This document shows positions 1,261-14,498 of a stretch of DNA of 26,009 nucleotides, piece by piece. Source of the DNA: a virus; the IMG/VR virus record IMGVR_UViG_3300006101_000058, positions 1-26,009 of that record, one strand, 5' to 3'. The notes under the pieces were generated by a model that saw only the letters and a list, made by a program, of their open reading frames with translations, did no database searches and was not told where the DNA came from. How positions within the stretch are numbered: position 1 is the first letter of the stretch; each line of letters begins with the position of its first letter. The position numbers and the translations under genes were made by a program.

Positions 1261-1268
1261 TATTTATA
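1261..1268 (-). promoter_or_regulatory. Late-promoter box TATAAATA before the 73-residue head gene
   Basis: The minus strand reads TATAAATA, the exact T4 late consensus recognised by gp55-RNA polymerase, overlapping the portal stop codon. The ATG of the next gene begins after only four more bases (CAGC). With the usual T4 late spacing, transcription would start at or next to that ATG. It may be fortuitous because part of it lies in coding sequence, but the same arrangement recurs before portal and before the tape-measure-like gene. Confidence 0.5.
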
Positions 1269-3087
1269 TCGCCGGCACTCCGCCGCCACCACCGCCGGGT
1301 GCTGGGGGTGCTCCGGTTCCGGGTATCTGCCCGGCTGTGGCTAGATCTGCTCCAGGCTGTCCGGGGCCTGGCATGACTTCGGCTCCGGCCAGATCCTGAC
1401 CGGTCGTGATGTCACTTTCCATGCCAGCTGGAGTAATACCAATTGATCTAAGATCCTGCCCTTGTGTGGTGTCAATCTCAGGTTTGTCGCGTTCTTCTCT
1501 CCAGGTTATTTCGTTTTCCATGATCTCTTCTTCAGTCAGACCCAGGAAGCGTTTCATCATGAACCTTTTGCTCATGTACGGCAACTGTTCCAGCTGTGTA
1601 AATGCCGAGATACGGGCATTGTCCATTTCGGCCTGTCGATAGGTAGCAAAGTTCTGCGGTTCACAGAATCTAATGGTAAACAGCCCGGAATCAATATTGA
1701 AACCTCTCCAGTGCAGGAACATCTTGAACTCGTCGTCCAACTTTTGCATGATCAGATTCTGCAAGCGTTTGCAATACTGGTTGAATCTGTACTCCTGTAT
1801 CAAGGCCGTGCCCACTTTGCCGTCGGTGAATGCACGATCCGAATCGTCAGGACCGGTTGGCAAATAGCTAGAAGGCACACGCAATCCGCGAGCCATCTTG
1901 TTGTTGAAGTATTTGAGGTCGTCAATTTCACCCAGATTCTGGCCACCTGGCAAGGTGTCTACGCTGCTGCCGCGGCCGTCGGCTGTGACCGGAAAGTAAA
2001 AGTCTTCGTTGACTGCCAGCGGATTGTAGCTGGCATCCATCATGTTGGCGCCACCGCCGGTGTTGGTTGGAATACGTCGTTGATGCATTTCGTTCTTGAC
2101 TCGTTCCACAAACTGCATGGCCAAATGACTGGGCATGTTGCCCACGTCAATTTTGAATATGCGTCGCTCAGGCGCACGTTGCACACGATAGATCAAGACC
2201 GAATCTTCCAACAGTTCTTTCTGCTTGTAGACCTTGAATATGTTTTCCAAGATGCTTTGTCCAAACGGCCAAAAGAAATCCAGTCCTTCGTTGAGACTGA
2301 GATGTATCACGTGTCTGGCATCCAGACAAGTTTCGTTCATGGCCTGCGAAAATCTATTGTTGCCAGTACCGCCACCGGCTCCACCATAGCCACCGCCGTT
2401 GGGTGCAGTATAGTTGTTTTGTCCTGCACTGCCGGTAGCACGACTCACATAGTAATCCGATGTGGTCTTGGCTGCCATGCTCATGTTTTGGAAATTGGGG
2501 TTGATGTCTCTGATGATGTATTGCTCGGGTCGCTTGCCTTCGCTTTCGTTCACGATCACACGTGCCACCTTGACCATGTCCACCCAGTACATTTCAAATG
2601 TTTCTGGGTCGCGCACAAACACCTGATCGCCATACTTGATCACGTTGCGAAACAGCTTGAATATGCGCTGATCCAGCTTGTTGAGTTTGGTCCACTGTTG
2701 CAACTGTTTCTTGATGATGTCTATTTCGTGGTCAGTGGGCTTGTCGGTGAACTGTATGTCAAACGGTGTCTTGTTGTCGGCATTGACCTGCGTGCTGAAT
2801 TCAGCTATGATGTCCAAGCAAGCATTGACTTCACTGTCACAGTCCATGTTTTCGTACTGATTGTAGCGTTCAATACGGTTGGGATGCCCCGAATAAACTT
2901 CAGGCAAACGACTGGCATAGTTGCGATAGGCAAATTCATTGCCAGTGCCCGGAGTGTCGTAGCCGGCACCGTTTTGTTTGCCGTAGCCGGGCAGTCCAAA
3001 TTGATTGGATCCCGAGATCGGACTGAGTTGACCGCCTGTGCTGGCTACCTTGAAATACTTGCGCCAACCTTTGTTGTTTTCTGCCAT
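1264..3087 (-). CDS. 20: Portal vertex protein gp20
   Basis: 607 residues. It forms the dodecameric channel at the unique head vertex through which DNA is packaged and to which the neck attaches. Recognised from family blocks: 'SRLPEVYSGHPNRIERY' near residue 60 followed by 'MDCDSEVNACLDIIAEF', and 'GEIDDLKYFNNKMARGLRVP' in the clip/stem region around residue 385. The C-terminal 60 residues are Gly/Pro-rich low complexity (GAPPAPGGGGGGVPAI). T4 gp20 has 524 residues; this one is longer at both ends, with an extra Gly/Asn-rich loop near residues 225-245 (GGGYGGAGGGTGNN). The start follows a late-type box and has no clear Shine-Dalgarno. It lies between the tape-measure-like gene and small head-core genes. 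Confidence 0.93.
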   Translation of the reverse strand: MAENNKGWRKYFKVASTGGQLSPISGSNQFGLPGYGKQNGAGYDTPGTGNEFAYRNYASRLPEVYSGHPNRIERYNQYENMDCDSEVNACLDIIAEFSTQVNADNKTPFDIQFTDKPTDHEIDIIKKQLQQWTKLNKLDQRIFKLFRNVIKYGDQVFVRDPETFEMYWVDMVKVARVIVNESEGKRPEQYIIRDINPNFQNMSMAAKTTSDYYVSRATGSAGQNNYTAPNGGGYGGAGGGTGNNRFSQAMNETCLDARHVIHLSLNEGLDFFWPFGQSILENIFKVYKQKELLEDSVLIYRVQRAPERRIFKIDVGNMPSHLAMQFVERVKNEMHQRRIPTNTGGGANMMDASYNPLAVNEDFYFPVTADGRGSSVDTLPGGQNLGEIDDLKYFNNKMARGLRVPSSYLPTGPDDSDRAFTDGKVGTALIQEYRFNQYCKRLQNLIMQKLDDEFKMFLHWRGFNIDSGLFTIRFCEPQNFATYRQAEMDNARISAFTQLEQLPYMSKRFMMKRFLGLTEEEIMENEITWREERDKPEIDTTQGQDLRSIGITPAGMESDITTGQDLAGAEVMPGPGQPGADLATAGQIPGTGAPPAPGGGGGGVPAI

Positions 3088-3105: not shown

Positions 3106-5433
3106 TCAATGACTCTGTTGCAATATCTTTTGACTGACGTTTACTTGGTTCTTCATCACTGTGATCAACTGGTCCAGTTTGTCCAGTTGCATGGACATGA
3201 TTGCTTGATTGTTGTTGTCCTGTAGTGCCTGCACCATTTGATCCAGTTTTGACATCTGCTGGGTCATCATGCTAGTGGCCGGTTGATCGGCTGTGTCTGA
3301 CCGCATGCGATCGGGTGTGATTGTAAGCTGTTCAGTGCCGTGCATGGTGATGTCGGGCTTGTATCCACTGACCGGCCCTGACAGCTGGCCATCAAATCCG
3401 TTGGCACCCCGTATCGACGGGCCCGTCGATCCGTTTTTTAAAATTTGATCCATCACAGCTGATTCACTATTGTTCATGCCAACTTTAGGACCGGCAGGAG
3501 CATCGCTCGCGGGCATGGTAGGACCGTTATTCTTTGATGGGGTGTTAGCTGTTGTTGGCGATGTTGAACTAGCTACTTGCGTGATTGTGCCAACTCTTCC
3601 GCCTTCAACTTTTTTCATCGCATCTAAAAATCTGCCTTGTTCTTCTCTGGACATATCAACATAGCGTTTGCTCATGTCCAGATTTGCCATCTTGGCCACA
3701 TTTTTAATATACGATCCTGAATCATTTTCGTTGGGCGGGGCCCATTTTTTTATAGCATCGGCTGCTGACAATTTGCTATAAAGGTCGCCTTTTAACAAAG
3801 CATCAGCGGCTCTACGACCCATCTCTTCTGAAGGAAATATAGCAAATCTACCATCACTGCCAATGGCTCCCATTTTAATGGCAAAATCTCCGTACTCGAT
3901 ATCGCCAGGGTTGTTGCTTCTCCAATTGCGATCGCCCCCGCTACGCATTTCCCCATTGGAATACGTGATAGTAGGCGATCCAGTTGCAGTTTTTCCAACA
4001 GAAGCTGGACCTTTGGCGTCCTTGCCACCGCTGAAAAAGTCACCCACTTTGTCCCAAAACCCTTTGCTACCTTCGGCGGCCTGGTCTGTGATTCCAGCCA
4101 ATTTGGCCATGGCCTTGGTAGCTGGCCCTACGCCGTCGTTGATCATGCTTTGCAGTGCATCTCTGGTCTTGAGTTGTTTTTCTCTAAGAGACACAGCCGC
4201 ATCTGTGGTACTGTCAGTGACTTCGGTTGATTTTTCAGCTGCAGCAGCTGATTCAGTCCAGTTTTTGCTGTTTAGCTTGATTATGTCACGGTAAGGGCCT
4301 GCAAAATCAGACAGGTTGTTCATGCGAGCTTGACCTTTGAAGTTGTCAAGGGCAGCACCTGCGGGTTTTAATGCATCCATGAACTGGCCCATGTTCATGG
4401 TGCCGTTTTTCACTTGATTTATCATTTCCATGAGTCGTCCGCCCGACAGCTGGAACAACTGGTTCTGTTCTTTGCTTCCAGTAAACATACCGGTCACACT
4501 TTCAGCAAACGCACGAGCCTTGGCGCCAGTAGGGTCCACGCTCATCAAGGAATTGAAGATTTTTTGCAATTCTTCGCCTTTTTCGCCCATGTCGCTGACT
4601 GTGACTGCAAACGAATCCACAGCCTGGGCTGCTTCACGTTGCTGTTCCAATTCTTCACGCTGTTGGCCAGTCAATCTGGTAAGGCCTTCCATCTCTTTGA
4701 GATAGGCCACAGCACCCTGTGTGAGCTCGGCCTGTGTTTTGCCCTGGCCCTGACCCAGCATGGTTATCTGTTTGTAGTATCCTGCAATGGCACGATTTTG
4801 ATTGTCAACATTGAGCCCCATCTTTTGGAACGTGTCTTGCAGACCGGTATTTTTAAAATCTTCGGCTGTTTTGGCCATGGCCGCGGTGCCTTGTGCCACT
4901 GTGCCACCAAACAGAGCCAGACTCTTGGCATTGGCCTGCAACAATGCAGTCATCTGATCCAGCTCGCCGATGCCGTAGCTGAATTTCTGCATGGTATCAA
5001 ACACATCGCTCATGCCATTGGCAGTGCCTTGACCAAATCTGGTCAGATCCTGATAGCTCTTGAACAGAGCATCCGATTGCTTGTTGGCTTCCTGAGCATA
5101 TCTGGCTGCAGCCGTAGCGGCCAGACCCAAAGCCCGGCCCACAAACGGTATCCGAGCGAGCAGGTCGCTCATGACCTTGGCTGTTGCTCCAATGCCGTCG
5201 TTGAACACTGCGGCACCTTGCGCACCGTCTTTGAGATTTTCTGCGTATTTGAGTGCCGACGATCCTAGGTCTGAAAAACTCTTGTTGAGCTGGGCTGTGT
5301 AGTTTTTGACACCAATTGTGGCATCTTTCATCTGCCTTGACAGTTCGGCCGTGATCGGTGTGCCTGTTTCGATAGCTCGATTGTAGGTGTCAAATATTTC
5401 TTTGATTTCTTCAGCGGTGTATAGATCGGCCAT
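3106..5433 (-). CDS. Tape-measure-like tail protein with a peptidoglycan-hydrolase-like segment
   Basis: 775 residues, mostly predicted helix. Residues 1-300 are rich in Ala, Gln, Lys and Glu with heptad-like coiled-coil stretches and one hydrophobic segment near residues 90-110 (IPFVGRALGLAATAAA), as in tail tape-measure proteins. At about residues 500-545 there is the motif 'NWRSNNPGDIEYG' followed by 'GRFAIFPSEEMGRRAADALL'. This 'N-NPGxIxYG ... FAxFPS' pattern is known from phage structural proteins linked to peptidoglycan hydrolysis (PRD1 P5-type annotations). The C-terminus (last 60 residues) is again coiled coil, 'MSKLDQMVQALQDNNNQ'. The tape would lie in the tail tube and be delivered first into the envelope, where a wall-cutting segment makes sense. 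Divergent to the gp26-like pair. It does not resemble T4 gp29 closely, so the role is inferred. Confidence 0.6.
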   Translation of the reverse strand: MADLYTAEEIKEIFDTYNRAIETGTPITAELSRQMKDATIGVKNYTAQLNKSFSDLGSSALKYAENLKDGAQGAAVFNDGIGATAKVMSDLLARIPFVGRALGLAATAAARYAQEANKQSDALFKSYQDLTRFGQGTANGMSDVFDTMQKFSYGIGELDQMTALLQANAKSLALFGGTVAQGTAAMAKTAEDFKNTGLQDTFQKMGLNVDNQNRAIAGYYKQITMLGQGQGKTQAELTQGAVAYLKEMEGLTRLTGQQREELEQQREAAQAVDSFAVTVSDMGEKGEELQKIFNSLMSVDPTGAKARAFAESVTGMFTGSKEQNQLFQLSGGRLMEMINQVKNGTMNMGQFMDALKPAGAALDNFKGQARMNNLSDFAGPYRDIIKLNSKNWTESAAAAEKSTEVTDSTTDAAVSLREKQLKTRDALQSMINDGVGPATKAMAKLAGITDQAAEGSKGFWDKVGDFFSGGKDAKGPASVGKTATGSPTITYSNGEMRSGGDRNWRSNNPGDIEYGDFAIKMGAIGSDGRFAIFPSEEMGRRAADALLKGDLYSKLSAADAIKKWAPPNENDSGSYIKNVAKMANLDMSKRYVDMSREEQGRFLDAMKKVEGGRVGTITQVASSTSPTTANTPSKNNGPTMPASDAPAGPKVGMNNSESAVMDQILKNGSTGPSIRGANGFDGQLSGPVSGYKPDITMHGTEQLTITPDRMRSDTADQPATSMMTQQMSKLDQMVQALQDNNNQAIMSMQLDKLDQLITVMKNQVNVSQKILQQSH

Positions 5434-5446: not shown

Positions 5447-5456
5447 GAGGAAAATC

Positions 5457-6305
5457 ATGAGCCAAACTAACCCACTAAAACAGTATTTCCGCCAACCAGC
5501 AGTGTACATACGCTTGCCCAGCAACGGACGATTTTATCCACCCGGTGCCCTGAATCCCAGTGTCACCGGCGAATATCCAGTATATCCCATGACTGCCATA
5601 GACGAAATAACCTATCGTACTCCAGACAGCCTGTTCAACGGACAATCCACAGTGAACGTGATCAAGAGTTGCATGCCCGACATTATAGATGCCTGGGCTA
5701 TTCCGGCCACGGACATGGATGCTATCTTGGCTGCCATACGCATGGCCAGCTACGGGCACGAAATGGAATTTGGCAGCACCTGCCCCAGTTGCCGGGCCCA
5801 GTCAGACCGTGCAATAGATCTTAGATCTGTGCTGGAAAGCCTCACAGCCGGCGACTACGACAGCAGCGTGCAGTCAGGCGACATGGAGATATTTTTCCGT
5901 CCCATGAGCTACAAGAATCTCAGCGATAACAATCGCATGCAGTACGAAAATCAAAAGCTGTTACAGATGATGCCAGATCTGTCAGATTCCGAGCAGATCA
6001 ACGAAGCCAAAATCACAGCAGTCAGCGATGCCTTGAAAAAGATAACCGAAGTCACGGTGCATGCCTTGGCCCAGAGCATTGCCGCAGTCAAGACCCCCAC
6101 AGCCATGGTACACGAACCTGAATACATTGAAGAAATGCTCAAAAACTGTGATCGTCGACTGTTTGCGCAGATACGCGATCATGCGATTGACCTAAAATCG
6201 CAGTCAGAAATGCAGCCCATGCAATTGACCTGCGACGAGTGCAATCATGTGTATCAACAGCAACTGACTCTGGACATGTCGAGTTTTTTCGATCGCGCCT
6301 CCTGA
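5457..6305 (+). CDS. 26: gp26-like baseplate/tail assembly protein (probable tail chaperone, zero-frame product)
   Basis: 282 residues. The N-terminal half carries the blocks typical of T4-like gp26 base-plate family proteins: 'LPSNGRFYPPG' near residue 20, 'PVYPMTAIDEITYRTPD' near residue 41, and 'AAIRMASYGHEMEF' near residue 92. Two CxxC pairs (C109/C112 and C259/C262) could hold a zinc ion. T4 gp26 is shorter (about 208 residues). The start has GAGG eight nt upstream. Four codons before the stop, the codons read T TTT TTC (6284-6290), a canonical -1 slippery heptamer. The overlapping -1 frame continues for 76 codons, so a longer product is likely. The gene lies next to the tape-measure-like gene, as tail chaperone pairs do. 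Confidence 0.8.
   Translation: MSQTNPLKQYFRQPAVYIRLPSNGRFYPPGALNPSVTGEYPVYPMTAIDEITYRTPDSLFNGQSTVNVIKSCMPDIIDAWAIPATDMDAILAAIRMASYGHEMEFGSTCPSCRAQSDRAIDLRSVLESLTAGDYDSSVQSGDMEIFFRPMSYKNLSDNNRMQYENQKLLQMMPDLSDSEQINEAKITAVSDALKKITEVTVHALAQSIAAVKTPTAMVHEPEYIEEMLKNCDRRLFAQIRDHAIDLKSQSEMQPMQLTCDECNHVYQQQLTLDMSSFFDRAS
6284..6290 (+). promoter_or_regulatory. Candidate programmed -1 ribosomal frameshift site, T TTT TTC
   Basis: In the zero frame of the gp26-like gene the bases 6284-6290 read T TTT TTC, matching the X XXY YYZ rule. The zero frame stops at 6303-6305, four codons later. A -1 slip after TTC leads into the frame that stops at 6518-6520. The predicted fusion has 278 gp26-like residues plus 76 more (354 total). 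Position and direction match the lambda G/GT arrangement. Confidence 0.6.
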
Positions 6306-6520
6306 TCTCGGACTCTGAACAGATCGGGCTCATGGTAGACGATATGGAAAAAGAGTGCAACAAGATCAGACAAGAGGCTTTCCAGCTCAGTTGGTACATG
6401 CGTGGCGGGCTCAGCTACGAACATGCCCTGCAACTCAGTGCCAGCGAACGAGTGTTGATCAATCAGCTGATCAAGGACAATTTGGAAACTACCAAAAAGT
6501 CAGGACTGCCTTTCTTTTAA
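6290..6520 (+). CDS. gp51-like C-terminal extension reached by -1 frameshift (or internal start at 6332)
   Basis: 76 codons in the -1 frame relative to the gp26-like gene. The conserved-looking part is 'MEKECNKIRQEAFQLSWYMRGG' (split here: MEKECNKIR, then QEAFQLSWYMRGG), then a helix and the end 'KKSGLPFF'. Small proteins of this shape follow gp26 in other T4-like phages, where they are called gp51 or baseplate hub assembly protein. If translated separately the best start is ATG at 6332, giving 62 residues, but it lacks a recognisable ribosome-binding site. That absence, the slippery heptamer upstream and the correct frame all favour production as an extension of the gp26-like protein. Both modes could operate. 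Confidence 0.65.
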   Translation, partial: RSRLLISDSEQIGLMVDDMEKECNKIRQEAFQLSWYMRGGLSYEHALQLSASERVLINQLIKDNLETTKKSGLPFF

Positions 6521-6943
6521 AGAACCTGTTGTTTCATTTCAAGATCTCTAACGAGATCTGTTGCTTTCGCTGTGCTCAGCAACTGTGTTCTTCTCTTGCA
6601 TTATCCAGATTATGCGGTCACAATTCACCGTATTCACGGTGAACTGACTTCTACATTATCCGAGTTGTAGCTGTCATTTACGATAAAGAGATTCGTTTTC
6701 ACGACGGAGGCGGTTGACCGGTACCCCCTACTCTAGCTTCACATATCAACGGAACCCTAGTGACCCAATCGTAAATCCAAGTCCTATGGGCATGAGTTGT
6801 GTCTTTTTCACAGAGCTCAAATCCTTTGTTGCCTTAAGTTAGCAATTGCCTTTGACACCCGAGCGAACCTAGGTCCATTCTATCCGAGCCGATACTGTCG
6901 GCCCTCAACGGGGATCGAGCTACCTCGATCAAACACAGTCGGT
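6521..6943. other. Gene-free convergent gap rich in hairpins
   Basis: 423 bp between the gp51-like stop and the GIY-YIG stop, with no convincing gene on either strand. It holds several perfect inverted repeats: AGATCTC-TAAC-GAGATCT (6542-6559), GTTGCT/AGCAAC (6560-6583), TTCACCG-6nt-CGGTGAA (6624-6643), GCCGA/TCGGC (6888-6902) and GATCGAG-CTAC-CTCGATC (6913-6930). A longer-range 9-bp pair, ATTTACGAT (6676-6684) with ATCGTAAAT (6768-6776), encloses 83 nt. The hairpins lack the T-run of simple terminators. A structured RNA, 3' UTR stability elements, or decayed coding sequence are possible. No tRNA cloverleaf could be built. Confidence 0.6.
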
Positions 6944-7384
6944 TTAGTTGCCTGTAGAAAGTTTGTTTTTTATATGACTGCCGTGTATGCGGCACACTAT
7001 CTGCCCGTTGTACCAAGCGTCTGATTCCAGTACTTGATGACGGAACTGTTCGCGGGCTTCAATATAGTTGCATTCGGCCTTGCTTTTACAGTAAAATAGT
7101 ATCTGTCTAGTGAAGTTGTCGGCGCCCAGCGCCAGTAGGTCTTGGTTCAGTTGATCGTTGCTGCCGTAGTATTGTTGCCAGTCTGAGTCTATCTTGCTGC
7201 GGATGCGTTTTCGTTTCTTGTTGCCGTTTTTGAGTTTGACTACCTTGTACGTGGTCTTGCTGAATTTTGCTAGTTTTTTGCCGATGTATCGACGTCCGGT
7301 TGTGGTGTTTGTGATCAGGTACACAAAGCCCACACAGTCTTCGGGCAGTTGGTTGATCTGGGTGTTTTCGTATAACCATGACAT
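6944..7384 (-). CDS. GIY-YIG family endonuclease, probably free-standing homing type
   Basis: 146 residues. The GIY half appears as 'GFVYLITN' (residues 19-26) and the YIG half as 'RRYIGKK' (31-37). 'SDWQQYYGSND' follows near residue 67, and the likely metal-binding glutamate is E109 in 'NYIEAREQF'. The C-terminal 'WYNGQIVCRIHGSH' is also typical of the phage version, so the protein looks complete. These enzymes cut DNA at a specific or semi-specific site and promote their own spread, like the Seg proteins of T4. It is the last gene of the minus-strand operon, three nt after the dehydrogenase stop, and it borders the hairpin-rich gap. No interrupted host gene is visible, so it is not in an obvious intron. 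Confidence 0.85.
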   Translation of the reverse strand: MSWLYENTQINQLPEDCVGFVYLITNTTTGRRYIGKKLAKFSKTTYKVVKLKNGNKKRKRIRSKIDSDWQQYYGSNDQLNQDLLALGADNFTRQILFYCKSKAECNYIEAREQFRHQVLESDAWYNGQIVCRIHGSHIKNKLSTGN

Positions 7385-7387
7385 GGA

Positions 7388-7972
7388 CTATTGTTTATGA
7401 TCAAAATTCACCCACCCTATAATTTCTTCAATGCATGTGTTTGGTTGAGCATTAGTAATTAGCTCAATGTACGAACAGATATCTGCTGTGTCAATTCCGT
7501 TCCCAGTCCAGCTGGATCTGTTGCGAGTCAAATCAGTATCCAGCCGATCGAGGGTGAGTAGACTGGTTTTGAACGGTACCTTGTTGTCTTTGAATGCTCG
7601 TGTCCACTGGCGACTGTGTTCTTTCAAGGCTGCCTTGCTCACACGATAGGTTTCAAAACTTGGAATCGGCGCCGACACTGTTTCACTGCCGACACTGCCT
7701 ATGTTGACAATATATCCTGACTTGTTTTCTTTGGCCCACAGATCTCCAACTGCATACAACAACTGAACCTGTGCAAAATTGGCCCAGGGCTCTTGAAATG
7801 GTCCGTCAAATGCGTTGTTAACAAACACGTCATAGTCTAAACTGATCTTGGCCAACTTTTCTGTATCTTTTGTGATGTCAAAGCCGTTGCCTCGGCAGTA
7901 ACTGTCGCCGCCAAAACGGTCAATCATGGCAAGTCCTAGGCCCTTGCTACCGCCAGTAATCATGTATTTCAT
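7388..7972 (-). CDS. Short-chain dehydrogenase/reductase
   Basis: 194 residues, short for the family (usually about 250). The Rossmann cofactor motif is 'TGGSKGLG' (residues 6-13), the 'NNAG'-type motif is 'VNNA' (51-54), and the active site is S93, Y109 and K113 (YRVSK). All three catalytic residues are present, so an active NAD(P)-dependent oxidoreductase is expected. The C-terminal substrate-binding part is reduced. The ATG overlaps the stop of the radical SAM gene by four bases (ATGA), indicating translational coupling and probable action in the same pathway. The substrate is unknown; a sugar, or the product of the radical SAM enzymes, is the natural guess. A similar gene is not part of the T4 core. 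Confidence 0.85.
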   Translation of the reverse strand: MKYMITGGSKGLGLAMIDRFGGDSYCRGNGFDITKDTEKLAKISLDYDVFVNNAFDGPFQEPWANFAQVQLLYAVGDLWAKENKSGYIVNIGSVGSETVSAPIPSFETYRVSKAALKEHSRQWTRAFKDNKVPFKTSLLTLDRLDTDLTRNRSSWTGNGIDTADICSYIELITNAQPNTCIEEIIGWVNFDHKQ

Positions 7973-9081
7973 CGTTTACTTCCTCCTTGATCCCATACTT
8001 TGGTAATTTTAGAACCACAGGTCATGGCACACTCAAACAAACGACCGTTGGCCAGTGTTTTGTTCCACGACTTTACTAGATCTGCCCACATAGAATTACT
8101 AAAAATTTCTTCTAAACTGTGCAGATTAATATTGAAACTGTCTAAATCGTAACTTTCCAAAAACGACCTAACTTGATTTTTGCCATCAACTGTGCTCAAC
8201 TGGTTGGACTCGGGCAACACACCTGCCTCGTAAAATCTACGATCGTACAGATTATGATTAAAAAAGTTACAGGGCAATACCAATCCTTCTGCATTGACAA
8301 CAACCTTGGGGCCAATCATGGCATCGCATTTGATTTCTGTGGTATCAAAATAGTCTTTAATATTGCTGTACTGTCGTTTTAATTCTGGTAAAAACAGCAT
8401 GCTCTGATTGCGGTACTCGGGATTAACAGGCGGTTCTATAACATACTCGTCCCTGACAGGCCATGCTGTCATTTCTTCAACAGTCCTGTGATTAAAAAAT
8501 CTTCCAGTTTTTCTAATCAACACATTAAAAAAACCCAAATCCTTGCCCAGCTGTTTGGCCTTTTCTACCTGATGCTCGTTGTGTTGAAACACAATAAAAT
8601 TCCATTGAGCACGACCCCCTGCGTCAATAAAAGACTTGGCATTTTTGATCACTTTGTTATAGTTTACATTTTTCCTATACAAATGTAAAGTATCTTCCAG
8701 GCCATCGATACCAAAATCTATTTGTCCATAACCGGCCATGATCCTGGCAATTTCTGCCCAGTACTCTGGTTCATGCACACCACCGTTAGTATGAAAATAC
8801 AACCACAGTGTGGGATTCTTTTTACGAAAATCACGCAAGATATCCAAAAAATTTGGATGCATAATAGGATCGCCGTAGCTACCACAGAAAAAAATCTGAT
8901 TCAGACCTTTGCATATTCCAGCGATAAAAGTTTGATCTATTACAGTACGATCGAGATGGCACAGCGGCATTCTTTTGTTGATACCGCGACCATTTTCATT
9001 GCGAGGACATTGCGGGCATGCGGCATTACAGTAACTGGTAATTTCCAGTTGATATTCCTGTATGTCTGTTACATTAAACAT
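7969..9081 (-). CDS. Radical SAM protein with SPASM-like C-terminus
   Basis: 370 residues. C18, C22 and C25 form the CxxxCxxC motif (SYCNAACPQC) that binds the [4Fe-4S] cluster cleaving S-adenosylmethionine. 'FFCGSYGDPIMHP' (64-76) fills the place of the GGEP motif, and 'DFGIDGL' (122-128) is a core strand. Extra cysteines C252 and C271, and C351 and C355 near the end, suggest a SPASM-type auxiliary cluster domain; these occur in peptide-modifying and sugar-acting radical SAM enzymes. I chose the ATG at 9079-9081 because AAAGGG lies seven to eight nt upstream and it overlaps the preceding stop by eight bases; an ATG ten codons earlier lies deeper in the preceding gene. The substrate is unknown. 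Confidence 0.88.
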   Translation of the reverse strand: MFNVTDIQEYQLEITSYCNAACPQCPRNENGRGINKRMPLCHLDRTVIDQTFIAGICKGLNQIFFCGSYGDPIMHPNFLDILRDFRKKNPTLWLYFHTNGGVHEPEYWAEIARIMAGYGQIDFGIDGLEDTLHLYRKNVNYNKVIKNAKSFIDAGGRAQWNFIVFQHNEHQVEKAKQLGKDLGFFNVLIRKTGRFFNHRTVEEMTAWPVRDEYVIEPPVNPEYRNQSMLFLPELKRQYSNIKDYFDTTEIKCDAMIGPKVVVNAEGLVLPCNFFNHNLYDRRFYEAGVLPESNQLSTVDGKNQVRSFLESYDLDSFNINLHSLEEIFSNSMWADLVKSWNKTLANGRLFECAMTCGSKITKVWDQGGSKR

Positions 9082-9574
9082 CGGGCAACCCTTTAAAAAA
9101 ATCTTTAGCATGATCCAATGTCTGTTTGTTGGTTTTAAAAATAGTATTATCTAATTTTGGCCCAGGCTTGCGTAAAGAAATTAACCACAGTGGCGCCGGG
9201 GTGGTAAACTCCAAGACCCAAGTGCCGTTGTGCCCTAGATACAGATTGGGACTGATGTAGTAAGGATCGCTGTCGGTTTTGTGTAGATAAATTGGAAAAA
9301 ATTTACCATCCCACAATTCTCTCTCAAGTGAAATTTGATCCATACTGATTGCCGTTATTTCTACATGTTTGTCAATATTGCTGTTGCTAGCATCGTCGAT
9401 GGTTTTGCCGTAGTGTGTAATTTTTAATGAATGCAATTCGTCTGGTATGTTGAGTTCAAAACTGTATTGGTCCTGTGCAGGACCGTCGGCCAAGGTCAAA
9501 TAATCGTCTACAATTATTTTTACCAGTGGATCTCCTAATCCTCGTTCGACGCTTAAAGAAATATCTAATTTCAA
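9074..9574 (-). CDS. Unknown beta-rich protein between two radical SAM genes
   Basis: 166 residues, no recognised enzyme motif. It alternates short strands and turns and contains 'LWDGKFFPIYLHKTD', then 'YLGHNGTWVLEF' near residue 115. This pattern of a lysine-rich 'G-K-x-x-P-I-Y' followed by 'Y-L-G-x-N-G-x-W' recalls a widespread phage protein family of beta-sandwich, possibly carbohydrate-binding type; I recall this from memory and give it low weight. Start: TTG at 9572-9574 overlaps the preceding TGA (TTGA) and has GGAG seven nt upstream, a clear coupled start. An in-frame ATG 26 codons earlier lies inside the preceding gene and is less likely. Being sandwiched between two radical SAM genes suggests a partner, substrate or carrier role. 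Confidence 0.7.
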   Translation of the reverse strand: MKLDISLSVERGLGDPLVKIIVDDYLTLADGPAQDQYSFELNIPDELHSLKITHYGKTIDDASNSNIDKHVEITAISMDQISLERELWDGKFFPIYLHKTDSDPYYISPNLYLGHNGTWVLEFTTPAPLWLISLRKPGPKLDNTIFKTNKQTLDHAKDFFKGLPDV

Positions 9575-11073
9575 TGTATCACTCCAGCTAGTCGTGCAAT
9601 TCTTTCCTGGTACTTGTCCATCATAATTTTGATTTGATCGTCGCCCTTCCAAAAGGTATAACCTAGATTTACTGCATGTTCTTGGGCTTCAAGTCGTCGC
9701 ATGATGCGTTCTTTGTAGGTTAATTCTGGATTATCCAAGCATTTCCAGTCGGCACCCTGGGGGCGATTGCCGTTGACGCCGATCAAGTTTAGGCGCTCTG
9801 GATAATCGTACATTTCGGTTCCTTCTTCAATGGTCAAGGTGGTTCCTAAATTCACACCGATCACTGTGCCGTCGGCCACATATCTTTGATAACGAGTCAG
9901 CATTTCTAGAGTCTGGTCAAAGTCTTCTCTAGTCTCGGTGGGAAAGCCCACAATGATAAGAAAATACACTTGTATTTTGTTCTTGCTGTATTCTTCCATG
10001 TTATAATCTAAGTCAGCACCGGTAAAGCCCTTGCGCATGTGTTTTCTTACACGATCACTACCGGTTTCTATTCCGATAACCATGGTATCTGCACCACCTT
10101 GTGCCATGATTTCAAAATCAGCTGATTTAAAATTACTGTAAGGTTGCACAATAGCATGACTACTGTATTTGAAATATCTGTTTGGCAAATTATTTTTTTT
10201 GTAGTAATCCACTAAGGTTTGATTGAATTCTCTGAAATCTTTCACACTTCCGTTGCACAATGCGTCATGAAAAAAGTAATCGCGCACTTGATAGTGTTCG
10301 TAGTAATGTATCATCTCGTCAGCCAACTGTTTACCGCGTTTGAATCTATAGCCTCCCTGCATGGTAGGAATGTCACAAAATACACAATTTCTTACACAAC
10401 CTCGACTAGTTTCCATCGGCAGTACTCCGGTAGTATAACCACTTTGGTATTTGGTAATGTCAAAGTCGCTAAAATCCATTGGAGCATGTTCTTTTATGTT
10501 GCTGTATTCTGCTAAGAAATCGGTGTCAATACCAGCCACAGAATAATCACCGGCCATAATAAACGGAATGGTTGTTTCGGCCTCACCACGGATCCAATGA
10601 TCGATCAACTGTTGATCTTTTAAAAAGTGTGCAAATTCAGGACGTTGACTATAGCTTCCGTTTTCTTCTCGTATCAGTCCTTGTCCCCCCACAATCACTT
10701 CTACCGTAGATAGTTTTCTTAATCGAGTTAAAAACTCCACACAAAATCTTTGTGCTTGCCAGCTGAACACACTGATAAATAATTTTTTTGGTTTCTCCAA
10801 CAGTATCTGATCAATCCATTGTTGAACAAATAGATCTAACGTTTTTTGTGCAACTTGACCAATTTTTTTATTTTTGACAAATAAAAACTCGTCAATTTCG
10901 TTAAACAGTCCTGCATCTGTGTTTTTTTTGAAATCTGTAAAGTAATCGATATTGATATCTAAAATACGACTTGTAACATTCAAGCGATTTAAAATACCTT
11001 TGATGATTGCTGGTGCTGCTGCTGGACGCACTGGTGCCACTCTAGGTATAGTTAAAATCACTACGTCAGTCAT
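9571..11073 (-). CDS. B12-binding-type radical SAM protein
   Basis: 500 residues. Residues 1-170 look like the Rossmann-type B12-binding domain common to this class, with 'VIVGGQG' (126-132) and 'IRGEAE' (161-166) before the radical SAM core. C226, C230 and C233 form the CxxxCxxC motif (SRGCVRNCVFC). 'GADTMVIGIETGSDRVRKHM' near residue 330 and 'YFLIIVGFPTETREDF' near residue 370 are standard core strands of Elp3/MiaB-like radical SAM proteins. No DxHxxG cobalamin-lower-ligand motif is seen, so B12 may bind base-off without a His ligand or may not be bound. Members methylate or rearrange unactivated carbons. It is coupled to gp46 by an ATGA overlap with GGAG six nt upstream. Confidence 0.88.
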   Translation of the reverse strand: MTDVVILTIPRVAPVRPAAAPAIIKGILNRLNVTSRILDINIDYFTDFKKNTDAGLFNEIDEFLFVKNKKIGQVAQKTLDLFVQQWIDQILLEKPKKLFISVFSWQAQRFCVEFLTRLRKLSTVEVIVGGQGLIREENGSYSQRPEFAHFLKDQQLIDHWIRGEAETTIPFIMAGDYSVAGIDTDFLAEYSNIKEHAPMDFSDFDITKYQSGYTTGVLPMETSRGCVRNCVFCDIPTMQGGYRFKRGKQLADEMIHYYEHYQVRDYFFHDALCNGSVKDFREFNQTLVDYYKKNNLPNRYFKYSSHAIVQPYSNFKSADFEIMAQGGADTMVIGIETGSDRVRKHMRKGFTGADLDYNMEEYSKNKIQVYFLIIVGFPTETREDFDQTLEMLTRYQRYVADGTVIGVNLGTTLTIEEGTEMYDYPERLNLIGVNGNRPQGADWKCLDNPELTYKERIMRRLEAQEHAVNLGYTFWKGDDQIKIMMDKYQERIARLAGVIH

Positions 11074-12833
11074 GCCATCTCCACGTCTGTGTTATAGCTG
11101 GTATAGCCATTCTCTTTGACCACTTTTAGTATATTCTCCACTCGGCCAGCCAGCTCGTCTCGGTGACTGACCAACCATATGCTCTTGTGGCGCTCGCGAC
11201 TCATGTGCTTGAGCAAGGCCAGGGCCGCTTCCACACCAGCTGTGTCCAAGCCGTTGTCGATCATTTCATCTATGAACAGAAGGTTGATTGGCTGGTACAA
11301 ACTTTCAAACACATCACGGAAGGCCCAGCTCATGCTGAGAATCAGTCGGTTGCGTTCACCTCTACTGAGATTGTCAAAGTCCAGCTCGCGGCCCAGCTCT
11401 TCGATCAAAACTGTGAGGTCATTCTGGAATATGACTGTGTGCGGCAGTCCCATGCTGTCCAGATAGTGTGTGAGTCTGGCATTCAGGTAACTGAGATTCT
11501 GTTCTATGATCTTTTTGCGTATGAAACTGTCCTTGCTGGTCAGCAGTTTGAGCAAGAACTCCTGATGCTCTTGCAAGCGAGTGAGTTCATTCATGCTGTC
11601 GTAGGAGACTTCTTGCAAGGCAGCCTGGGTCATTTCTTCAATCTGTTCAGTGTAAGGGTCGATTTCTTGTCGCTTGTGATCAATCTGCTGTACGAGACCG
11701 GCCACTGTGGCACGATGCTGAATCGCGTCAGCTTCGTTGTCATAGAACATCTTGGGCGGTCTCCCCAGCGTGCCCAGGGTTTCAACTGCAAGCTCGAGGT
11801 CTGCCAAGAGCTGTGCATGTGCCAGGCTTGCTGTTCTAGCTGTTGCCAGATCCTCCTGTTTCGCTGTCACGACCGATTGGTGCTTGTTGTCGTGGAAGGG
11901 CTGGCCGCAGGTATGGCATTCGTGACTCTCCAGCGTTGCAATTTCTTTCGACAGTTTGTCTATCGTTTTGTTTTCTCGATCACGGTCCAGTTTGGTGCGG
12001 CTGATCTGACCGGATAGATCGTTGAAGTCTTTTCTTTTTTGATCCCAAGCCCGGTGTGCTTGATGCGCTGCAATTTCGTCTTCGATCTGTATATTTTGTA
12101 GCGCCTCGAGTGCTTTTTCCAGTTCCTGTACGTCAGTGGAATGTTTTTCCGCCCATAGTCGTTGTCTACGTTTGAGATTTTCAATCTGTTCTTGGATGCG
12201 TTGATTGGCCTCTTGCACAGCTCGTATCCTGAACTCTTCTTGCTGTATGGCATCTCGTGTGCCCTTGTTCAACTCTTTGATGCGATCGGCTCGATCGCTC
12301 AGTTGTGTGATGCCCAACAACTGCTCGATTATGGTGCGTTGATCGTTGGCCTTGAGACTCAAGAATGGTTCGGTATAGGTATTCAAGGCCATGATGTGTT
12401 TGAACATGTCGTGGCTGAGTCCCAGCACCGACTCGATGGCTTCCTGTGTTTCTCGGCTGTCGCCCTGTGCTTCGTCCGCGGCGACCTTTTGTTCGCTGTT
12501 GACATAGAATTTCAGTAGGTTGGGCTTGCGACCACGTTCGATTCGATACGCCTGTGCGCCCAACACAAAGTCCAGACTGACCAGCATGCCCTTGCCGTTG
12601 GTCTTGTTGACCAGGTTGTCTTTTCTGATATTGCTGAGTGCGTTGCCATACAAGGCATAGCTGAGTGCGTTGATGATGGTGGTCTTGCCGGTGCCGTTGC
12701 GACTGCCGTCACCGCCCAGGTCAAGATTTTCACCCAACACAAGAGTAAGGTCTGACCGATCAAAATCGATGGCCTGTGTGGCATTGCCCACACTCATGAA
12801 GTTTTTAACGGTTAGTTTTTTAATTTGGATCAT
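11070..12833 (-). CDS. 46: Recombination endonuclease subunit gp46 (Rad50/SbcC-like ATPase)
   Basis: 587 residues (T4 gp46 has 560). An SMC-type ATPase that with gp47 resects DNA ends for recombination-dependent replication and host DNA breakdown. Walker A is 'GSRNGTGKTT' (43-52). Long coiled coils flank a zinc-hook 'CHTCGQ' near residue 305. The ABC signature is 'LSRGERNRLILS' near residue 495, Walker B is 'LLFIDEMIDNGLD' near 518, and the switch is 'VSHRDE'. All key residues are present, so it should be active. It overlaps the SGNH-like gene upstream and the B12 radical SAM gene downstream by four bases each. In T4 gene 46 directly follows gene 47; here five to seven reading frames separate them. 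Confidence 0.95.
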   Translation of the reverse strand: MIQIKKLTVKNFMSVGNATQAIDFDRSDLTLVLGENLDLGGDGSRNGTGKTTIINALSYALYGNALSNIRKDNLVNKTNGKGMLVSLDFVLGAQAYRIERGRKPNLLKFYVNSEQKVAADEAQGDSRETQEAIESVLGLSHDMFKHIMALNTYTEPFLSLKANDQRTIIEQLLGITQLSDRADRIKELNKGTRDAIQQEEFRIRAVQEANQRIQEQIENLKRRQRLWAEKHSTDVQELEKALEALQNIQIEDEIAAHQAHRAWDQKRKDFNDLSGQISRTKLDRDRENKTIDKLSKEIATLESHECHTCGQPFHDNKHQSVVTAKQEDLATARTASLAHAQLLADLELAVETLGTLGRPPKMFYDNEADAIQHRATVAGLVQQIDHKRQEIDPYTEQIEEMTQAALQEVSYDSMNELTRLQEHQEFLLKLLTSKDSFIRKKIIEQNLSYLNARLTHYLDSMGLPHTVIFQNDLTVLIEELGRELDFDNLSRGERNRLILSMSWAFRDVFESLYQPINLLFIDEMIDNGLDTAGVEAALALLKHMSRERHKSIWLVSHRDELAGRVENILKVVKENGYTSYNTDVEMA

Positions 12834-13546
12834 ATGGTGTTTAAGTTTAACATATTAAGATATTGATCACAAACACTTTGGAGAATTTTTTTGTCAGTTA
12901 TATGATAGTAGGGTCGAGCTATAGATGAATCGTAGTAGTCCCAAAGATTGATGCAATTTTCTTTTTCTTTATATTTTGAAAAGTTCCAATCTTGTGCAGG
13001 TTTAAAATTTTTATGTTCAAATCCACCCTGACTCCAGGCCCATCCTTTGACATTCTTAGCAGAATCAATCATTGATAGGGTTTGTTGTATAAAAATATAA
13101 TTTTTTTCAATTGTCGACGGCATATCTACATACCGCATAAAAAAGTTTTTAATTTTGTCTACACAGGCAGTGGTAAAAATATTGTTGTGCAATTTTGGAT
13201 TAAACGGATTAACCCATGACATACACAATAACTCCTTGCGGGCACCTGGTGCCAACACATTGTGATATCGATTTATATTATCTGTTTGGGAATCATTTAA
13301 ATTCAAAACAAATTCCTGACGAGTTGATCCAGTAGCGTTATATATTAAATAATCGCACTGATTTTTTAAAGCGTGTTTAACCTGTAGATATATCAAGTAA
13401 TTACTAGCACCCGGTATAGATAAATTAACGACGGTTGTGTTGGGCAATTTTTTAGCCAGCATCTCAGTCCAATTATTGCCATAGTCGGGGTCGCTAGAAC
13501 AAAAACTGTCTCCGCATATATAAAGGGTTTCTTTAGTTAACAGCAT
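12830..13546 (-). CDS. SGNH/GDSL-like hydrolase
   Basis: 238 residues. Block I is 'YICGDSFCSSD', with the nucleophile candidate S14 in G12-D13-S14. 'NLSIPGASNY' (41-50) fits block II with its glycine, 'YNATGSTRQEF' (69-79) fits block III with asparagine N70, and 'YYHI' (213-216) supplies a C-terminal histidine after several aspartates. The block order matches SGNH esterases, which often add or remove acetyl groups on sugars. No signal peptide is seen, so it acts in the cytoplasm or on virions. The start overlaps the epimerase stop by 14 bases, and its stop overlaps the gp46 ATG (ATGA). AT-rich compared with gp46. Substrate unknown; context points to a glycan. Confidence 0.65.
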   Translation of the reverse strand: MLLTKETLYICGDSFCSSDPDYGNNWTEMLAKKLPNTTVVNLSIPGASNYLIYLQVKHALKNQCDYLIYNATGSTRQEFVLNLNDSQTDNINRYHNVLAPGARKELLCMSWVNPFNPKLHNNIFTTACVDKIKNFFMRYVDMPSTIEKNYIFIQQTLSMIDSAKNVKGWAWSQGGFEHKNFKPAQDWNFSKYKEKENCINLWDYYDSSIARPYYHITDKKILQSVCDQYLNMLNLNTI

Positions 13547-14498
13547 TGTTTTGCTGGACTATCCAATCATATAACTTTTTCAACCCATCATCCAATGATT
13601 GAGTATGGGTCCATCCTAGTTTTTCTTTAATCAATCTATTGTCTGAATTTCTACCGTTAACTCCAATAGGACCGTCTACATAATTAATTGAAATATTTTT
13701 TCCTGAAATAGCTATTACTTTTTTTGCTAATTCAGTGATGCTAACTGACTCTTCGCTACCTATGTTAGCTGGCCCAGCAAAATCGCTAGCCATTATTTTA
13801 ATAGTAGCATCCAAACATTCGTCAATATACAAGAATGAACGAGTCTGCGATCCATCCCCCCACACGTCGATTGATCCACCGTCGTGTGCCTGGGCTACCT
13901 TTCGGCAAATAGCTGCCGGCGCCTTTTCTTTGCCGTTGTTCCAGCTAGTTTCAACACCAAAAATATTATGATATCTACCAATATGAACCTCGACTCCGTA
14001 GTTTTTTTTTAAATTTTGATATAAGCGTTCACTAAACAACTTTTCCCACCCATACTCACTGTCAGGCTCGGCCGGATATGCACTACTTTCTTCACAATTG
14101 GGGTTATCAGGGTCAAGTTGATTGTAAGCCGGGTATATACAAGCAGACGAACTAAAAAAGATTTTTGGTTTAGGATTTTTCATCAACTCATTGATAATAT
14201 TTAAATTTATCAAAGCTGAGTTATAAAGAATGTCCATATCGTTTATGCCCGTAAACACGTAGCCTGCTCCGCCCATATCTGCAGCCAATTGATAAATTTC
14301 ATCGACAGGTTCTTCCAACAACATTCTACACACATCACGGTCTCGTAAATCGCCAACAATAAAATTATCAGCAGCGGTTACACTAAATTCTGGCAAATGT
14401 AAATCAACCCCAGTTACATAATGTCCTTGTTTTTTTAATCGGATAACCAAGTGCGACCCAATAAAACCGCCTGCGCCCAAAACTAACATTTTTTTCAT
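13533..14498 (-). CDS. GDP-mannose 3,5-epimerase (GME-like) of the extended SDR family
   Basis: 321 residues. The Rossmann motif GAGGFIG is at 8-14. Compared from memory with the plant enzyme, the catalytic residues C145, Y174, K178 and K217 of Arabidopsis GME correspond here to C120 (SSACIYP), Y149 and K153 (YGWEK), and K192 (GKEKAPAAICRK), all with the same offset of 25. 'LAADMGGAGY', 'DGSQTRSFLYIDEC' and 'GRNSDNRLIKEKLGW' are further family blocks. The enzyme turns GDP-mannose into GDP-L-galactose and GDP-L-gulose in the cytoplasm. Alternatives are UDP- or dTDP-sugar epimerases, but the Cys/Lys pair is specific. AGGAG precedes the ATG by about ten bases, and the gene starts one nt after the upstream stop. 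Confidence 0.88.
   Translation of the reverse strand: MKKMLVLGAGGFIGSHLVIRLKKQGHYVTGVDLHLPEFSVTAADNFIVGDLRDRDVCRMLLEEPVDEIYQLAADMGGAGYVFTGINDMDILYNSALINLNIINELMKNPKPKIFFSSSACIYPAYNQLDPDNPNCEESSAYPAEPDSEYGWEKLFSERLYQNLKKNYGVEVHIGRYHNIFGVETSWNNGKEKAPAAICRKVAQAHDGGSIDVWGDGSQTRSFLYIDECLDATIKIMASDFAGPANIGSEESVSITELAKKVIAISGKNISINYVDGPIGVNGRNSDNRLIKEKLGWTHTQSLDDGLKKLYDWIVQQNNAVN

Follow-up and report, generated by a model that had tools for sequence, protein, structure and literature searches.

The gp26-like gene in the window (the whole 26,009-nt stretch analysed here, from IMG/VR record IMGVR_UViG_3300006101_000058) is very probably one tail assembly chaperone gene decoded in two ways, with standard decoding giving a short form and −1 frameshifting at a T TTT TTC heptamer giving a long form. 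Its sequence marks the window as part of a T4-superfamily myovirus genome; besides a portal gene (Table 1), it holds an SMC-type nuclease-subunit gene (11070-12833) that resembles gp46.

Locus structure and reading frames

Read from the ATG at 5457, the zero frame of the gp26-like gene ends ATG TCG AGT TTT TTC GAT CGC GCC TCC TGA, and because the frame reads AGT TTT TTC, the heptamer is in X XXY YYZ register. An open −1 frame begins at 6191 and ends with the stop at 6518-6520; no in-frame ATG occurs in the extension until 16 codons in, and no RBS-like sequence was found ahead of that ATG. An earlier note on this DNA had described a phase-correct heptamer four codons before the stop, a −1 frame that continues for 76 codons beyond the heptamer, and a downstream piece without a ribosome-binding site of its own, and the sequence bears out all three.

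Table 1. Coordinates of the gp26-like locus and its neighbours in the window
Feature	Position	Strand	Basis
RBS-like GAGGAA of the gp26-like gene	5447..5452	+	Sequence; just 5′ of ATG 5457
Short form, zero-frame product, 282 aa, T4 gp26 family, putative tail assembly chaperone TAC-N	5457..6305	+	Pfam, PHROGs, AlphaFold2/Foldseek
Slippery heptamer T TTT TTC, putative −1 frameshift site	6284..6290	+	Sequence and conservation in relatives
Zero-frame stop TGA, four codons past the heptamer	6303..6305	+	Sequence
−1 frame extension (FF + 76 residues + stop), predicted C-terminal part of the long form	6284..6520	+	Sequence, conserved in relatives
Predicted frameshifted long form, ~356 aa, TAC-NC, putative T4 gp51 equivalent	5457..6520	+	In-silico fusion alignments
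Divergent neighbour, 775 aa, lysozyme-like segment; its position and size alone make it a candidate tape measure	3106..5433	-	phrog_873 match, residues 481-646
Portal protein gp20, T4-superfamily myovirus context	1264..3087	-	PF07230, E = 1.6e-103

The earlier note also placed the pair beside a tape-measure-like gene. The 775-residue neighbour is indeed adjacent, but it is divergent and its product had no tape-measure family match in PHROGs, Pfam or NCBIfam; profile comparison of the neighbouring proteins with T4 gp29 likewise gave no match. In KVP40, Ah1 and Aeromonas 65 the gene order is tube protein, gp26, extension and a gene of 500-700 aa, such that the large gene lies directly 3′ in these phages, whereas it is divergent in the window, and in neither arrangement does it match a tape-measure family.

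Just 3′ of the gp26-like locus there is a SegE-type GIY-YIG homing endonuclease (6944-7384, minus strand; PF19835, E = 3e-33). Two radical-SAM proteins (7969-9111 and 9571-11073, both on the minus strand) adjoin a short-chain dehydrogenase (7388-7972), with an NAD-dependent epimerase (13533-14498) farther along from the pair, constituting an unusual small-molecule or surface-modification gene set that separates the tail gene from the recombination genes.

Family and predicted structure of the two products

The short form belongs to the gp26 family, with a score of 49 bits against PF12322 (cut-off, 24.5; residues 63-278; E = 8e-13) and a match to phrog_150 (residues 5-278; E = 3.5e-14), and is ~15% identical to T4 gp26 and gp51. 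Foldseek matched its AlphaFold2 model (pLDDT 92) to gp26-family proteins from a wide range of phages, among them Aeromonas phage 25 (gp26) and Campylobacter CP220. The fold of the HK97 chaperone gp13 (2OB9) is present in the same list at a level that is not significant (E = 3.6; TM 0.20/0.46), and no solved structures with T4 gp26 or gp51 were found.

The extension alone, as a 78-residue −1 product, had no family match in Pfam, PHROGs or NCBIfam. It is predicted to be all-helical (pLDDT 91), and a fold search returned a small helical protein (best E = 0.011), an uninformative result. Relatives keep a core of WYMRGG...ER...LETTKKSGLPFF within the extension. When the two frames are fused in silico, the alignment of the window product with the cyanophage fusions spans 266 columns (E = 3.6e-15), and the window-type fusion aligns weakly with T4 gp51, reaching the gp51 C terminus (E = 2e-4). 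The window extension by itself gives a short, in-register profile match to the gp51 tail that is weak (probability 2-5%). Based on this register, the extension appears to correspond to the C-terminal tail of gp51. The description of this piece as gp51-like in the earlier note would be apt for only the last ~50 residues of T4 gp51 and would not extend to the whole protein.

Conservation of the slippery site

Relatives were drawn from IMG/VR at three depths (close or window-type, cyanophage-type, and jumbo/freshwater), and both the slippery site and its frame relation to the extension are conserved. All window-type loci (33/33) have T TTT TTC. In the 32 loci of the close set it stands 1-6 codons 5′ of the stop and, where the contig is long enough, is followed by an extension of 72-75 codons, even though the position of the stop itself shifts. 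The same heptamer occurs in 80/80 cyanophage-type loci and in 77/80 jumbo/freshwater loci; the three that lack it have A AAT TTT, itself a legitimate slippery heptamer, in the same place. Cultured jumbo phages 121Q, MIJ3, Phosso, and Atu_ph07 possess T TTT TTC in the correct phase, and it is also present in KVP40, P-SSM2, S-PM2, Ah1, Aeromonas 65, BUCT608, and Desulfovibrio 7757, with the variants T TTT TTT in HTVC008M, phiM12, and Ochrobactrum OC and T TTT TTG in Rhizobium I1_9. After clustering (<50% identity), 35 of 35 clusters are slippery (31 TTTTTTC, 2 TTTTTTT, and 2 AAATTTT). Given the codon usage of each gene and taking the FF pair as given, the probability of this by chance is ~1e-23, a value that treats clusters as independent and is indicative only. 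Conservation in every cluster excludes a chance origin of the heptamer.

The heptamer could also be read as the by-product of a conserved Phe-Phe, with the −1 frame as a decayed or chance overlap that is not expressed; the FF pair is conserved at the slip-site position even in T4 gp26, where it is coded TTC TTT. Yet the codon choice for FF is fixed at the site, while Phe-Phe elsewhere in these genes takes the form T TTT TTY in only 4 of 113 cases, and across relatives the extension is conserved at the protein level, varies little in length, and in the cyanophages and KVP40 is homologous to the gp51 tail, leaving the by-product reading extremely unlikely. Among loci with TTTTTT, the codon ahead of TTT TTC is of eight kinds (AGT, AAT, GAT, TCT, GCT, CAT, ACT, and GGT) representing seven amino acids, and the final T is always present.

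A second alternative is that the locus consists of two separate genes, with the extension translated alone by stop-restart (coupled re-initiation) past the gp26-like stop. The cyanophages are where this would be most at home, as databases annotate the downstream piece as its own gene (e.g., P-SSM2 ‘gp51’) and in 65 of 67 distinct loci the −1 frame offers an ATG immediately past the stop, though a Shine-Dalgarno-like sequence is found ahead of none of the 65. Further, among distinct loci, 14/19 of the window type and 43/67 of the jumbo type lack any start codon within the first 15 codons of the extension, consistent with the late ATG in the window; T4 gp51 is a single continuous protein with the same domain order, and re-initiation would leave an invariant slippery heptamer unexplained. 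Separate translation is for these reasons improbable, and from a conserved shifted-frame extension that commonly lacks a start of its own we strongly infer that −1 frameshifting occurs at the heptamer.

Stimulatory elements

The cyanophages possess candidate stimulatory elements on both sides of the heptamer. A GAGG-type (Shine-Dalgarno-like) element starts 13-15 nt 5′ of the heptamer, and the E codon at this element favors GAG (73:10, versus 593:1363 elsewhere). A predicted hairpin 3′ of the stop has a mean z of −2.55 compared with −0.19 in controls; one of its pairs covaries (UA/GC/AU) among 18 distinct sequences and its covariation score is above every shuffle and slide. RNAalifold retained just four pairs of this hairpin, and in the most diverged cyanophage sequences the whole stem is not formed. 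The layout of element, heptamer, and hairpin resembles the arrangement in E. coli dnaX. For the window clade, a conserved downstream structure and a Shine-Dalgarno-like element were looked for and neither was found, there was no consensus fold, and folding of the downstream RNA of the window itself had z = 0.24, such that no stimulator is claimed there.

These elements also bear on whether RNA polymerase, and not the ribosome, slips on the six-T run to generate mixed mRNAs with no ribosomal frameshifting. The core of the site is a homopolymer run, extended to 7-8 T in some relatives (RM378 and HTVC008M), but nearly all lineages have six T followed by C, and a run of six T is short for RNA-polymerase slippage. 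Three lineages have A AAT TTT, a sequence compatible with tandem tRNA slippage but not with a homopolymer run, and the cyanophage Shine-Dalgarno-like element and hairpin fit ribosomal frameshifting, all of which renders transcriptional slippage very unlikely.

Proposed decoding and comparison with known systems

Under −1 ribosomal frameshifting, most ribosomes would stop at 6305 and release the 282-residue gp26-like short form, while a minority would slip at T TTT TTC, with the two tRNAs re-pairing on TTT TTT, and translate 76 more codons to give the long form. The gp26-type short form would be produced in excess and the gp51-type long form at a low level. Of the two lambda proteins, gpG attaches to the tape measure and the frameshifted gpGT, through its T part, to the tube protein; neither is present in the virion (PMC5009743). 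By analogy with gpG/gpGT, the domain shared by the two forms may cover the tape measure protein, while the helical extension, present in the long form alone, may recruit tail-tube subunits; both forms would be gone by the time the virion is complete. A chaperone function for the window gene is suggested by this parallel and by gp26/gp51, which have been listed as hub assembly chaperones (Leiman 2010). The gp26/gp51 family is now regarded as comprising tail assembly chaperones, in line with the suggestion of the earlier note that proteins labelled ‘baseplate hub’ be recast.

Tail assembly chaperone genes of T4-like phages were identified by Vladimirov, Gautam & Davidson (2022, Virology 566:9-15), a study that the phage Adele paper (PMC12846349) cites as having reported that TAC-N genes of T4-like phages contain poly-T slippery sites, and the summary given with PRFect (PMC10885494) describes some T4-like phages as having one short and one long fused gene. 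Because the main idea was published in 2022, what this analysis adds is a broader set of lineages, the stimulatory elements of the cyanophages, and the exceptions; going by the papers that cite the 2022 study, the further clade, the jumbo phages, the cyanophage cassette, and the T7-like site in the Ackermannviridae appear to be new.

The closest known counterparts, T4-like gp26 and gp51 (TAC-N and TAC-NC), are short and long forms from the same family as the window gene (PF12322/phrog_150), and differ in that T4 has two divergent genes where the window has one gene with a −1 site, and in the length of the extension (~50 residues compared to 76 in the window). The gpG/gpGT of lambda (slippery G GGA AAG) and gpE/gpE+E′ of P2 have a different heptamer and no detected sequence similarity to the window products. 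Unlike these proteins, the gp26 family has two CxxC zinc-finger-like pairs, and the tape measure, downstream in the lambda and P2 systems, has a divergent candidate in the window. The tail assembly chaperones of the Vandenendeviridae and Andersonviridae (PMC12846349) are, as proposed here, −1 frameshifted at a poly-T site in large myoviruses; this is a comparison of slippery sites, with a conserved GTTTTT in place of T TTT TTC.

Hundreds of phage records call this gene ‘baseplate hub’ or ‘hub assembly catalyst’ and omit the long product, an annotation that would be corrected. The locus also provides comparative support for the lambda-type short/long chaperone system serving T4-superfamily tails, and related phages offer a natural comparison between two forms generated by frameshifting (KVP40 and the cyanophages) and by gene duplication (T4).

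T4 genes 26 and 51 and other lineages

T4 carries gene 26 on its minus strand and gene 51 on its plus strand, a divergent arrangement that is not a frameshift pair. Both products match PF12322 over nearly the full length of the profile (gp26, E = 9e-64; gp51, E = 4e-52) and match each other by profile (E = 4e-17), with gp51 being a gp26-family protein that has an extra ~50-residue C-terminal tail. This tail matches the cyanophage −1 extension (E = 4e-9), and phrog_634 is common to the gp51 C terminus and the −1 extensions of the cyanophages and KVP40 (extensions, E = 2e-31 and 7e-22); the KVP40 annotation had likened its small ORF to the last 40 residues of gp51. Since the two proteins share a family and the gp51 tail matches the −1 extensions, gp26 represents the short form and gp51 is its long counterpart, each with a gene of its own, and Tevenvirinae-type phages including T4 would make the same two products from these paralogs. 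The proposal in the earlier note that gp26 and gp51 are a frameshift chaperone pair therefore holds for the conserved, phase-correct heptamer and −1 extension but not for T4 itself, where gp51 is a second full-length family member encoded divergently.

Searching with gp51 retrieved ~1,300 phage records, in which Tevenvirinae-type phages of enterobacteria and Acinetobacter predominate, while the frameshift form is kept in Straboviridae such as KVP40, Ah1, and Aeromonas 65. In the phylogenetic tree gp26, gp51, and the frameshift genes form separate groups, with gp26 and gp51 clean on long branches and the branching order not resolved. We consider it fairly likely that a single −1 frameshifted chaperone gene is ancestral to the whole T4 superfamily, including the jumbo phages and Straboviridae such as KVP40, with the T4 type derived by duplication and split into 26 and 51 and the cyanophages possessing the full cassette of Shine-Dalgarno-like element, heptamer, and hairpin. 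Derivation of the T4 type by duplication would explain why T4 has long been cited as the long-tailed phage without the G/GT frameshift, which is described as conserved among long-tailed phages ‘except T4’ (PMC5009743).

The Ackermannviridae (18/18 Vi01-type loci; VP-1, Kuja, and phiA8-29) keep the homologous −1 extension in the absence of the canonical heptamer and have an NTT TTY site (ATT TTC, GTT TTT, CTT TTT, or CTT TTC). Gene 10A of T7 is known to undergo −1 frameshifting and reads GTT TTC ahead of the shift, and based on this match the Ackermannviridae may use a T7-type slip; gene 10 (10A/10B) is a capsid gene, and the window differs from both in having the canonical T TTT TTC. The earlier note counted separated genes or the lack of a slippery site among relatives as evidence against a frameshift pair, and such cases do exist in the Tevenvirinae-type phages and the Ackermannviridae, though both arrangements look like derived states and the latter retain the −1 frame.

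Several individual genomes depart from these arrangements. In Campylobacter phage NCTC12673, PF12322 genes for a short form and for a gp51-like long form lie in tandem, and the long-form gene is broken by an in-frame TAA. One T4-like gp51 ORF (locus L158) stops after 120 aa and the remainder continues in the −1 frame, which may reflect a natural break or a sequencing error. In Rhodothermus phage RM378, for which its own genome was the sole database relative found, the gp26-family gene ends in seven T and the extension is in the +1/−2 frame (around 2015-2045 of the locus), so a different shift may be used. Lastly, T4 gp26 (gene 26, 3806-4429) weakly matches the gp28 family (phrog_1140, E = 9e-4; gene 28 at 6349-6882 of the T4 segment), and gp28 may be a third, distant relative of gp26 and gp51.
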